Both the position numbers and the translations under genes were made by a program. The notes beneath the pieces are model-generated. The model was given only the letters and a program-made list of their open reading frames with translations. It had not been told where the DNA came from and made no database searches. A stretch of DNA of 64,000 nt, taken from contig LUVW01000038.1 of the NCBI GenBank assembly GCA_001661515.1, forward strand, positions 62,001 through 126,000, written 5' to 3'. The stretch comes from Capniomyces stellatus. Taxonomy: Eukaryota; Kickxellomycota; Harpellomycetes; Harpellales; Legeriomycetaceae. Of this stretch, positions 16,475 to 30,500 are shown in pieces (the first letter of the stretch is position 1; every line of letters begins with the position of its first letter).

Positions 16475-17533
16475 CTATGCTACTTTGATTGATTTTCCTT
16501 TTTTCAAGCTTTTTTGGCCAATGATGACGCTATCTTTTGCAAGCTTTTCGTCCAAGTCTTCCTTTGGCTGTGACTTGGGTTCTAGTCGCTTAATAATGAT
16601 TTCAAAAATAATCGCAGCAAATACCAATGCAATCGAAAGCCACTGACCAAACGATAAAACTTTGCCGTACATGAACACGGACAAAAACATTGTGAACAGC
16701 TTTCGGGTCACCGTTACTGTAACAAGTGTCAATGAGCCATAGTTGCCAAGCATGTTGAAAATAAAGCATTGTCCTATTGACCCGCAGACCGAAAACAACA
16801 GAATGTCAAAGATAGCAGCGTTGTTTCTCATCAAGAATGCAGTGGCACTGGTGAGCTCTGGGTTATATGGGTTCATCAAGTAGAGGAACAAGAGCCCGCC
16901 ACTGAACAGGTTCATGTAAGTCATCATATTCCTTCCGTTGACCTTTTTGTCGTTTTTGATAATGTTGTCTTGCGTTGAATTCAAGGCTCCATCGAGTGCC
17001 AAGTTGATAAAAACCAAGAACAGTCCAAAGATACTATCCGTTGACAATCCAGCTGCGCCTTGCTTAGACTTGCTTCTCGAGCTGCTGGGCGACAGAGCCA
17101 TAAACCCGACTACTCCCAAAGTAATGCAAACAACCACAATGTACTTGTAAAACGGGAAGGTTCTTTTGTACAGCAATTTGTGCATAATCATTAGCGGAAT
17201 TAGTTTGCTAGATTTCGCCAGCGTCATCGTCAAGTAATCAATGTGCTTCAATGAGGCATACCCAAAAGGCGACGCTAAAGAGCAAACCATTGAAACTTTC
17301 ATGAATTTGACTATGCGGCTCTGTGTCATTTCCAGCTTGGGATCCTTTTTGATGTGGTAGCTATAAAAGTATCCTATAGCTGAAGCCACCAAAGCCTGAA
17401 TCGCATTCATGACTATAAAATAGTCAAACTTTTCTCCATCACCGTAAACCGTCGACGTCACTCGTTCCTGCGTATAGCCCCAGGTTAGAAAACAGCCATA
17501 AACACCAACAATATTGAACGCCAAATTCAACAT
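16475..17533 (-). CDS. HUT1: HUT1/SLC35B1-type nucleotide-sugar transporter of the ER
   Basis: Single exon, 352 residues, about ten hydrophobic segments. HUT1/SLC35B1 proteins sit in the ER membrane and exchange nucleotide sugars or nucleotides across it; yeast HUT1 is linked to UDP-galactose transport and ER protein folding. Family marks are GCFLTWGYTQERVTS in the first helix, the central TMTLAKSSKLIPLMIMHKLL (the conserved K-S-x-K-x-I-P motif), LALDGALNSTQDNI, and SVCGSIGQCFIFNMLG followed by LVTVTVTRKLFTM. The C-terminus is Lys-rich (KKGKSIKVA), resembling but not matching a strict KKxx retrieval signal. Length fits the family. It lies 1.1 kb from the HAC1-like gene, whose targets in other fungi include ER transporters; the proximity may be chance. 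Confidence 0.92.
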   Translation of the reverse strand: MLNLAFNIVGVYGCFLTWGYTQERVTSTVYGDGEKFDYFIVMNAIQALVASAIGYFYSYHIKKDPKLEMTQSRIVKFMKVSMVCSLASPFGYASLKHIDYLTMTLAKSSKLIPLMIMHKLLYKRTFPFYKYIVVVCITLGVVGFMALSPSSSRSKSKQGAAGLSTDSIFGLFLVFINLALDGALNSTQDNIIKNDKKVNGRNMMTYMNLFSGGLLFLYLMNPYNPELTSATAFLMRNNAAIFDILLFSVCGSIGQCFIFNMLGNYGSLTLVTVTVTRKLFTMFLSVFMYGKVLSFGQWLSIALVFAAIIFEIIIKRLEPKSQPKEDLDEKLAKDSVIIGQKSLKKGKSIKVA

Positions 17534-18677: not shown

Positions 18678-19971
18678 CTATAGACCAAGAATCTTTGTTA
18701 TTTCTGAATCCAGAGCTTGAGCTTCGGATACAGTATCTGTTGTATTTGCGTACAGGCTGGAGAGTTGTGTGTTATCATCAAACGCCGAGTTGAACTCTAG
18801 TAACCCGCTCAGATTGGATTCACTCTGATTGATTTGATCTGAATTCAAAAGATCAAGGTATGCTAGCACAGACTCGTCGTAGTTTGAAGGCATTGCTGGG
18901 ATTGTAGTGTTGGACTGGTCAAGCTCCAAGTTCAAGCTGGCCAACAAAGAGTTATCTGGGACTGAGCCGTTAGCTTTAAAATTTTGGGTAAAATTGGTCT
19001 CGTTTGCCAAAAGTCTGTTGATTTCAACGTCACATAGCAAATCGCTAAAAATAGATCCATTCAGTATATCATCATTATAGTTGGAAACCTCTGCTGCTGA
19101 GAGTTGTTAGCAAAATATAAAAATATTAAGCATACAACTGGACGAGTACTGCTGACTCGCACAAGTCGCCATTGATGTAACTGAATGTGTTATTATTAGA
19201 GATTGCTAGTGAATCTGAAGACAGGCTTTCTGAGAAAGCAGAGACGGATTTTTCAATATTTTGAAGCGAAACGGTGCAAGTTTCAGATGTAGAGCCGGTA
19301 AAGCTGAACTCGGAGCCACTGTCGTTAAGACTTATGCTTGGTTCATTGCTTGGTGGAGCCAGAGCGGAGTTTTCAGGACGCAGGACCAATGACTTGGCAC
19401 TATCCATCATATTCACCATGTTCTTGACGTAGTTTTCCAAGTTCAGACGTCTAGCTTCAGACTGTTGGTACATGCTTGTGATTCTTTGATTCTCTTCAAC
19501 CAGGAATTTGTTCTCATCCTCAAGCACCAGGGACCTGGACTTCTTCTTCTCCCGAGACTTCTGGGCTGCTAGTCTATTTCTTAAAACACGGGCCTTCTTT
19601 CTGTTCAGCGACTCGATTTCGTCAATTGGACCTCCTCTCTTTGCTGGTCTTCCGGAACGCAACTTTTTTGGGCTATCAAAAGTCGCTGTGTCACATGTTG
19701 AGCCCGAGTCAGACTTTGAGTCAGAGTAGCTGCTAATCTCACTCTTTATGTAGCTGGAGATGTCATACCCAGAATTGATGTCAAATGTTGGGAGCCCAAG
19801 GTTTCCAAAGGCGATCTCCTTGGCAAACCTGAGGCTGTCATAAGACCCAACAAGCTTGCTTTGGTCGATTGAACCCAAACATGATAAAGCTCCTGTTTCA
19901 ACGCCTGCTACCTGTGCCTGGTCCAGAAACTTTTGTACTTTTTCTTGATAGTTATAGCTGTCTGTGAGCAT
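18678..19971 (-). CDS. HAC1: HAC1/XBP1-type bZIP factor with predicted Ire1 intron
   Basis: On the minus strand, frame 1 (19971-19126) encodes 281 residues: an acidic/Ser-rich N-terminus, an NLS-like segment (KKLRSGRPAKRGG, about 102-114), a Hac1/XBP1-type basic region (RVLRNRLAAQKSREKKKSRS, 128-147) and a zipper to about 190. It stops after an 8-residue tail. A second frame follows, open from the junction to 18678. Two hairpins with Ire1-type 7-base loops flank 55 bases (19151-19097). Removing these joins 820 and 419 coding bases into 412 residues without frame error. The new tail of about 139 residues is acidic and Asn/Ser/Leu-rich (FSDLLCDVEIN, ESVLAYLDLLN, DSEITKILGL), like an activation domain. 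Family knowledge: ER stress activates Ire1, which cuts such mRNAs and tRNA ligase joins them. The unspliced product would be the short 281-residue form. bZIP assignment is sure; Ire1 splicing is a strong inference. Confidence 0.88.
19089..19103 (-). promoter_or_regulatory. 3' Ire1-site hairpin
   Basis: The minus strand reads CTCT-CAGCAGC-AGAG: a 4-bp stem closing a 7-base loop CAGCAGC that fits CNG/CNGN. Expected cleavage is between 19097 and 19096. The stem is shorter than at the 5' site, and the next base pair outward is an A-G mismatch. Confidence 0.77.
19097..19151 (-). other. Predicted 55-nt unconventional (Ire1-type) intron
   Basis: Begins CAGTACTCG and ends AACTCTCAG on the minus strand, so it has no GT at its 5' boundary. 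It contains the in-frame stop (TAA after the codons for QLYA) that ends the short form. Length 55 is 1 mod 3, which shifts into the downstream frame. An internal TGCTAAC resembles a spliceosomal branch site. A rival GT-AG intron of 61 bases (19149-19089) is also in frame but must skip three CAG acceptors to use GAG. Confidence 0.75.
19143..19159 (-). promoter_or_regulatory. 5' Ire1-site hairpin
   Basis: The minus strand reads CGAGT-CAGCAGT-ACTCG: a perfect 5-bp stem closing a 7-base loop CAGCAGU. This fits the Ire1 consensus CNG/CNGN, with cleavage expected after the third loop base (between 19152 and 19151). Confidence 0.8.
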
Positions 19972-27592: not shown

Positions 27593-30500
27593 ATGGAGGG
27601 TATAGAGAATTGTTATAAAGATACGGAGGAGCAAGGAGAATTGAATGAGAAGGTCGTTGGATATAGCGAGGAATGGGAAGAACGGACGTACAAAATAGCA
27701 CAGAGTCTTGAAAGCAAGGGGAAATGGGCAGGGCATTTGCGGAAACGGGAGTATGAGTGTTTGAAAAGAAGTTTGTCGAGTAAAGAAAGTTGGAGAAAGT
27801 CTATGTCATTTTGGAAAGATGGGTGGAAGTCAAAGGTTTGCCAAGAAGGTGTTGAAGGAGGCAAAACCGGCAGGGAGACTGGGGAAGGCCAGGTGGGGAT
27901 GGGCGAAAAGGTTAATGGTGAAGGCATGGATGAGTTTGGCGATTTTGAGCGAATGATGATAGCTTTCCATGTACGAGCGGTGATATTCGAGCAGTATGTG
28001 TCTGGATTGTATCCAGCAGAGTGCGATAACTGCCAGCTAGATAGCACGGCGATAGAAATTGAAGAAATTGAGAATTCGATAAGGCAGCAAAAGGGCGCAG
28101 AGGTTGAGAATAAAGTCAAGACTGAGACCAGTAGTACCAATGGTGCCAAAGGGACTATTGATAGCGATGATAGTGGTATGGATGTAGATTTAGATATGGG
28201 TAGCAGTTTGAAAGATGAAAAGATAGCAATGGATGCGGAAATGGGGAAGGCGGAGAGTAAAGGGAAAGAAGGGGAGAAAGAAGGGGAGAAAGAAGAGGAG
28301 AAAGAAGAGGAGAAAGAGGAGGAGGAAAACGGATTTGGGAGTTTGTTGATGGGGGCGAGTAGAAATATGGATGAAGACGATGATTATGATGAAGAGGAGA
28401 GTAGTGAGAAGGATATGGTAAAGGAGGAGGAAGAGGAAGAAAGTGCAGAAAAAGAGAAAAAGCATGAGGAGAAGGATAGTGGAGGGCTGTTGGTACCAGC
28501 AGAGGAATCTATTGGTGAGGGACTAAAATTCAATGGGGGCAGCGATGAAGGGGAGAAGGACAAGCAAAAGAGCAAGGAAGGCGATGAGGGCAAAACATTT
28601 GCAGAGCTATGGGCGTTAAATGTATCGAGTGGGATATCAGACGCGAATAAGCAAGAGCAAGGCGAGCAGGATATAAAGAAAAAGATGATAGAGGCTGAAG
28701 AGGATGAGAAGAGGATAAAGGAGGAGAAGGAAAAGGAGAAAGAGAAGAGGAAGAGATTGATTCCAGTAGGGCTGGTGTACGAGACGTTAGAGGACGATAT
28801 AATGGCGATATCGGAGCAGAGGCAATGGGAGGAGACAAAGATGCAGATCCAAGAGTATATAAAGGCAAAAGAGGAGGAGAGCAAGCAGGACAGAGTAGTG
28901 ACACAGATGGGGTCGTTGGTGAGTGTAAAGAATCTTGCACAGTTTATAGATAATAACCGCGCAAAAGTGCAGCTATCGACACTGGAGCTAACCTCGTTGC
29001 TGGCAGAGGTTCGGCCGAAAAAGACCAAGTGGGCGAGCGATGAGTGGCCAGGACAAGAGGAGCTATACAATGGGCTTGAGTCGGTGTTGGCAGAGTTGAA
29101 GGGGATGGGAACGGTGTCTTTGCCGTTTTTGTCGCAGGTTAAGCGCAGAGATGCGCCGGACTATTATGACGTGATTACCAAGCCTATGGACCTGGGGACT
29201 ATGGGGAAGAAGCTAAAGAATCTGCAGTATAGAAGTAAGCGGGAATTTATGGAAGACGTGGTTCAGATAAGAGAAAATTGTTTCCAGTATAACACGACTA
29301 ATGTAAGTGGAGATTAGAGCTAGAGGGGAAAAGGGATGGGGGTGTTATTAGAGAATTGTTGAGTAGTTGGGTAGTTATACTAATAAATGTTTTTGTGTTT
29401 GTAAAATAGAGCCATCCATACAGAAAGCAGGCAGACTCGTTGATGAGAAAGGCAGAGCAGTTGTTGGTAAAGGTGTCGGACACAGAGATACAAGTCAGGG
29501 TGCAGAACTTTAATGATGATGAGCAGAACAACGAGTTTGGGTACGACAGCGATAACTGCGGAGCGAACTACGTGAAGTTGAATGGGATCAAGAACAAAAA
29601 CCAGAGCGAGAATTCGGCGAAAACGCCTCAGGACCTTGGCTATGACAACCTGGATACACCTGACAGCAGCTATGTGTTTGGCACAGATGTCCTTACCAGG
29701 CCACCATCACTGAGCAACGGAAGCGGGAGGATCACGCCTCGAACCTTGGCAGCAGAAGACAGCTTGATGCAGGACGGCAGCAGTGTGGGGCTAGGATCAG
29801 TAAATGCGAACCCAGAGCTGCAGGAGATGGAGGAAAGTGAGGCACGGCAGCAAAAGGCCATGGAGTTTCAGGGGGAAAGAGAGGTTAGGGAGTTCAACAT
29901 CCAGAGGAGTGCAGAACAGGTTCTGGGCGACTACAACAGGTACCTGCACGTGGATAGAGAATACAGACAGAAGAGGACCAGAAAGTATCGGGCACAGAAG
30001 GCCATGGAGTCTATAGAGCGAAGCAAGCTCTTGTTTGGGGACCAGCCAGCGCTGATTAGGAATGAAGTTGGGATGAACCAAAGCCTTTTAGAAACACATT
30101 TTAGATACGTTCCTGTCCAAGTGCTTGACGACCAAACCGAGCCCGGTAAGTTGGAGCCGATAGAAGGGGAGGGAACGGCAAGTGAAGTTAGAGGGGGGCA
30201 GAGTGAGAAGCAGGAGCTTGATGAGTCGTTTTATGACTTTGATTTTGGATATGATGTTGAGCCATTGGTGGTTAAGGCGCAGAAGCTGAAGCTGTATGCA
30301 GCCAAAAACGGGCTTGACAATATAGAGTCGACGTCTGCGGATTACGAAACGCGGAAAAAGCTGAGTGACTTGGTTGAACGGCACAAGCTATTGCTGCAGG
30401 AAATGGAAACGGTTGACAAAAACGACGAGATCAACAAGGCAGTTTCGCAGAGCTCTGCGTACGAGCCAACGTGGGGAATTCCCGACTACTACTCGGGGTG

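Follow-up and report, generated by a model that had tools for sequence, protein, structure and literature searches.

The window, by which we mean the whole stretch of 64,000 nucleotides of Capniomyces stellatus DNA analyzed here, very probably carries a genuine HAC1-type gene of a harpellalean (Kickxellomycota) gut fungus. In the reading that we favor, and to which we assign a probability of about 0.9 on the basis of the sequence, this HAC1/XBP1-type gene would be expressed as an unspliced mRNA encoding a bZIP protein of 281 residues. Upon ER stress the genome's own Ire1 would cut both CNG^CNGN loops of this mRNA, a Trl1-type tRNA ligase would join the exons with loss of a 55-nt intron, and the resulting 412-residue factor, equipped with an acidic and probably activating tail of 139 residues, would switch on ER-folding genes. 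The gene structure, both hairpins, the fusion of the frames, the presence of IRE1 and TRL1 and the matching junction peptides in one other harpellalean are read directly from sequence. Cleavage, ligation, stress dependence, tail activity and target genes are extrapolated from the known pathway, and we infer the splicing of the gene and its role in the unfolded protein response. The mechanism would be of the classic HAC1/XBP1 type, and what would be new is its place in an early-fungal branch, the Kickxellomycota.

Gene layout and coding evidence for the tail

On the minus strand a bZIP frame of 281 codons starts with an ATG at 19971 and ends with a TAA at 19128-19126, between two closely spaced hairpins. 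A second, acidic frame on the same strand is closed by a TAG at 18680-18678. The original prediction had placed loops CAGCAGU (19154-19148) and CAGCAGC (19099-19093) in this region and had proposed that excision of 55 nt fuses the bZIP frame to an acidic tail of 139 residues without a frame error. Both loops are found at these places on the minus strand and fit CNG^CNGN, and the coordinates and counts proved right. A cut after the third base of each loop removes 19151-19097, exactly 55 nt, and the fused protein has 412 residues, 273 ahead of the junction and 139 beyond it. The elements of the gene are the following.

19152..19971, minus strand: exon 1, 820 nt, beginning with the ATG and ending at the predicted 5' cut
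19456..19602, minus strand: bZIP domain, residues 124-172, upstream of the intron (PF07716, 33.4 bits, cut-off 22.3)
19143..19159, minus strand: 5' splice hairpin CGAGU[CAGCAGU]ACUCG, loop 19154-19148, predicted cut after 19152
19097..19151, minus strand: predicted Ire1 intron, 55 nt, more stable when folded than any of 500 shuffles (z -3.57)
19126..19128, minus strand: stop codon of the unspliced frame (281 aa)
19102..19139, minus strand: central intron hairpin, outer stem 19139-19134 with 19107-19102, sharing 19103-19102 with the 3' splice hairpin
19107..19109, minus strand: TAA closing the tail frame just upstream of the predicted 3' cut
19089..19103, minus strand: 3' splice hairpin CUCU[CAGCAGC]AGAG, loop 19099-19093, predicted cut after 19097
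18678..19096, minus strand: exon 2, acidic tail of 139 residues (first codon split over the junction) and TAG, with a coding signal in this frame only

At the predicted junction GAGTCAG would be joined to CAGCAGAGG, with 55 nt taken out. The unspliced frame reads SYINGDLCESAVLVQLYA followed by a stop and the spliced frame reads SYINGDLCESAAEVSNYNDD; excision from loop to loop would swap the C-terminus in frame, from 281 aa in the unspliced to 412 aa in the spliced form. The fusion of the frames alone is weak evidence, because 13 of the 42 GT-AG cuts across the same stretch are likewise in frame. The tail itself has the properties of coding sequence. Its frame stays open for at least 414 nt in none of 2000 dinucleotide shuffles, and codon log-odds trained on five genes of the window are positive only in the predicted frame (0.134 for exon 1, 0.19 for the tail), while exon 1 and the tail each score below zero in all five remaining frames. 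The 139 residues include 22 acidic (D+E) and only 3 basic ones (K+R). Downstream of the HAC1-type gene, at 16475-17533 of the window on the minus strand, lies a gene for a nucleotide-sugar transporter of the UAA family (PF08449, 133.2 bits), which includes ER transporters.

Rarity and folding of the hairpin pair

The background for the hairpins was taken from the window together with 20 further pieces of this genome, each of 10 kb, which makes 528,000 strand-bases in all. Strict CNGCNGN loops on stems of four or more Watson-Crick pairs number nine in this set, and the one pair among them with a spacing of 15-700 nt is that of the HAC1-type gene. According to PMC8104961, yeast Ire1 in vitro also tolerates A as the fourth loop base; the correspondingly relaxed motif CNG(C/A)NGN gives 11 sites with a stem of at least 4 bp and again this one pair, while a stem of at least 3 bp gives 39 sites and five pairs, four of them elsewhere. 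When the eight bZIP loci of the genome were compared with 1.5 kb on each side, only the HAC1-type locus had a hairpin pair and two others had a single site. An Rfam scan of the window at the gathering threshold gave no match.

The loops had also been described as closed by perfect stems. The pairs are present, five Watson-Crick pairs with a possible sixth G-U pair in the 5' hairpin (CGAGU/ACUCG) and four in the 3' hairpin (CUCU/AGAG), but in RNAfold the full 3' hairpin in the register given above has a probability of only 0-0.07 in four contexts. This is low because the outer pairs of a competing central intron stem use the same bases. In isolation, the 3' hairpin in this register is favored (-2.0 kcal/mol) over the register shifted by one base (-1.1 kcal/mol). 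For the 5' hairpin, pairing probabilities in the four contexts are 0.86-0.99 for the inner four pairs and 0.08-0.93 for the outermost C-G. Formation of both splice hairpins costs 1.8 kcal/mol in an 81-nt piece and 4.3 kcal/mol in a 131-nt piece. The 55-nt intron is more stable than every dinucleotide shuffle by virtue of the central hairpin between the splice hairpins, and for the element as a whole the signal is weaker (z -2.07, with 16 of 500 shuffles equally good).

In S. cerevisiae HAC1 the 5' leader pairs with the intron, and this pairing blocks translation. In the gene described here, by contrast, leader-intron pairing is no stronger than expected by chance (38 of 300 shuffles are equally good), and therefore the unspliced mRNA may well allow translation of its protein, as has been suggested for HXL1.

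A homologue, the splicing machinery and competing explanations

When the spliced protein was compared with 6562 candidates out of 5.8 billion proteins, a single homologue reached E <= 0.001, namely AX774_g4250 of Zancudomyces culisetae (E 4e-43), an unnamed bZIP protein with 47% identity to the window protein over a 219-column alignment. Zancudomyces is placed in the Harpellales, Kickxellomycota. A two-sequence profile built from both proteins found no further homologue among the 8000 candidates scored, and named Hac1 or Xbp1 proteins gave no sequence match either in the search at E <= 0.001 (6562 candidates) or in the profile search (8000 candidates). Among the solved structures of the PDB the best matches are generic bZIPs (CREB, C/EBP), none of them with an E value below 0.015. 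Compared with the bZIPs of the genome, AX774_g4250 scores 176 bits against the HAC1-type gene and 29 bits against the next bZIP. The window itself carries a glycogen branching enzyme (318-2372) whose closest named fungi among the best 120 of 7995 are Furculomyces (73%) and Smittium (70-73%); its top score is an unnamed JGI protein with 55% identity, and no Zancudomyces protein is among these best 120 of 7995.

AX774_g4250 matches the window protein through SYINGDLCESAVL and then again from SAAEVS, and around the junction it reads SYINGDLCESAVLAQLSTQFSAAEVSVLND. In the window the 5' hairpin encodes ESAVL, and the match extends up to and beyond the 5' cut; the 3' hairpin, translated by hand, reads LSAAEV, and it is here (SAAEVS) that the match resumes. 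Conservation of both loops in related genomes, proposed earlier as a check, is addressed at the peptide level by this one relative. The Zancudomyces peptides match both hairpins, but the gene model reads through both and keeps them in the coding sequence, with 11 residues more than the spliced window protein. Should the coding sequence of the model be uninterrupted in the DNA, excision between the corresponding cut sites would take out 33 nt and leave the reading frame intact; should the model include a predicted GT-AG intron, a 33-nt in-frame Ire1 intron does not follow. Of all the observations on this gene, the read-through model is explained least well. A tentative idea, which we consider rather doubtful, is that sister genera of the Harpellales differ in the effect of Ire1 splicing on this gene, with the 55-nt intron swapping the C-terminus in C. 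stellatus and a 33-nt in-frame intron, flanked by the same hairpin pair, merely removing 11 residues in Zancudomyces. If true, spliced and unspliced Zancudomyces proteins would share one tail, the Ire1 intron would act there as a cassette or as a switch at the RNA level and not as a frame switch, and the two genera would show how such introns grow or shrink. A new Z. culisetae assembly has been published together with transcriptome data, according to PMC12611240.

The machinery for such a reaction is encoded in the genome (assembly of 24.5 Mb in 59 contigs). The Ire1 RNase family (PF06479) has one match, within a reading frame that stays open for 1853 codons or more (L012:4437-9998, minus strand; G000:C12). 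The 605-residue piece scanned combines in one frame the RNase domain (100.9 bits) and a kinase domain (51.6 bits), and by eye the N-terminal part appears luminal-like and is accompanied by a hydrophobic stretch. This IRE1 is unusually long; it contains extended regions of low complexity, and an insert separates the activation loop from the remaining kinase. Aligned to solved Ire1 structures, the RNase retains the Y and the RNKxHH motif, which we take to be catalytic. At the interface, residues counted in the alignment are D at the position of yeast K992 and K at that of yeast Y1059. According to PMC8104961, fission yeast and human Ire1 share this pattern, which occurs in 175 of 230 orthologues and is linked to a promiscuous, RIDD-enabled RNase; judged by its sequence in this way, the Ire1 of C. 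stellatus may also do RIDD. TRL1 carries its ligase, kinase and phosphodiesterase domains (PF09511, PF08303, PF08302) in one frame. ERO1 is found in the genome, and a gene for BiP, a possible target, is recognized by its signal-like N-terminus and a C-terminal KDEL. Upstream of BiP, in about 0.85 kb of upstream DNA within a 1011-base piece, this one promoter has none of the tested UPRE words except a single ACGTG core, about as many as expected from a background of 0.73 per kb. The DNA target of the HAC1-type bZIP may differ from the UPRE words tried, and one promoter is too little to judge. The same piece (L046, G000:C5:521950-522960) is very A-rich and contains AAAAGCAAAAGC-like repeats.

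Could the tail be joined through removal of an ordinary spliceosomal intron such as GTACTC...GCAGAG (61 nt) or GTATGC...TTTTAG (91 nt), with the hairpins a coincidence? The proportion of GT-AG cuts that keep the tail frame (13/42) would allow it, and GTATGC and TGCTAAC inside the intron resemble spliceosomal signals. However, the seven introns that were located by eye within conserved genes (29303-29409 and 52776-52672 of the window, two in actin, one in an actin-related gene and two in tubulins) all start with GTAA, five of them with GTAAG, and GTAA is absent from the body of the HAC1 gene, which thus lacks a genome-like 5' splice site. GTATGC combined with its four nearest AGs (39, 42, 45 and 47 nt) is out of frame; its cuts of 91 and 121 nt are in frame, but the 5' site is untypical. 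We consider spliceosomal joining quite improbable; the data that weaken it come from a small intron set (n=7), and an automatic search for an intron consensus, run from frame joins, gave no clear signal, with motif counts not above those of altered control words. As a separate candidate, a nested GTATGC...TGCTAAC...CAG intron was rejected, being out of frame at 39, 42, 45 and 47 nt and unlike the placed introns. The two introns placed in the window are of the form GTAAGT...AATAG, 107 nt (29303-29409, plus strand) and 105 nt (52776-52672, minus strand), and join a bromodomain-like and a Prp39-like gene (names given by eye). Two actin-family genes (G000:C17:17961-19461 and G000:C58:629639-631139) have identical scores for both exons (366.8 and 71.7 bits) and represent a recent duplication or an assembly duplicate.

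It is highly improbable that Ire1 cuts the mRNA in a RIDD-like control, with the product being degraded and not ligated. The D and K at the interface, tied to RIDD in PMC8104961, would agree with degradation, yet the same source reports the pattern in 175/230 orthologues, among them human Ire1 proteins, which splice too. The paired sites, the in-frame coding tail and the three-domain Trl1 point instead to ligation. An equally slight chance is left to a frameshift, a pseudogene or an assembly error, in which one frame was split by a sequencing mistake. The frames are indeed separate in the DNA, but a single indel cannot join them, because stops close both between the hairpins: the bZIP frame is shut at 19128 (TAA 19128-19126) and the tail frame remains shut until 19107 (TAA 19109-19107). 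Such an error would also leave the hairpin pair unexplained. The original reading of an Ire1-type intron in a HAC1/XBP1-type gene is supported by the rare hairpin pair, the coding tail and the junction peptides of the homologue, and further by IRE1 and TRL1 in the genome and the poor fit to the spliceosome.

Relation to known systems and meaning for early fungi

Within the open-licence literature, the texts available to us describe HAC1-type splicing in fungi for ascomycetes and basidiomycetes. The gene of C. stellatus resembles HXL1 of Cryptococcus neoformans, which also codes for a bZIP protein and has an Ire1 intron of 56 nt, bordered by CAG on either side and accompanied by stem-loops (PMC3154848). 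In contrast, HXL1 belongs to a basidiomycete, is extended by splicing from 406 to 426 aa (PMC6116095), compared with 281 to 412 in the gene of the window, and has an additional conventional 55-nt intron (PMC3154848). Its unspliced protein has been proposed to be translatable (PMC6116095). The intron length had been called basidiomycete-like, and as a number this holds against the 56 nt of HXL1 reported in PMC3154848; however, 55 nt says nothing on relationship, because the organism is a harpellalean gut fungus and not a basidiomycete. The HAC1 genes of the Saccharomycotina share the twin border hairpins, the intronic stop and the swapped C-terminus, with introns of 252 nt in S. cerevisiae, 19 nt in C. 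albicans and 626 nt in C. parapsilosis (PMC6222058). These lengths differ from the 55 nt in the window, and the likeness considered here is one of architecture.

Animal XBP1 is likewise a bZIP factor that is activated by Ire1 splicing with a swapped C-terminus, and on the animal side there is also the human-type D and K interface of the C. stellatus Ire1. The animal intron is about 26 nt long. The ligase is unlike that of human cells, where RTCB joins the XBP1 exons, whereas a fungal Trl1 is present in the genome studied here. A catalogue of stress genes in anaerobic fungi treats Ire1 and Hac1 by homology (PMC10512342). Among the open-licence literature matches listed, none describes splicing of the Ire1 type in Kickxellomycota or in any other fungi outside the Dikarya. 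A clear case in the Kickxellomycota, combined with a human-type Ire1 interface, would provide an outgroup for the ancestral length of the fungal intron, and it would bear on whether early fungi had an Ire1 that did both splicing and RIDD.
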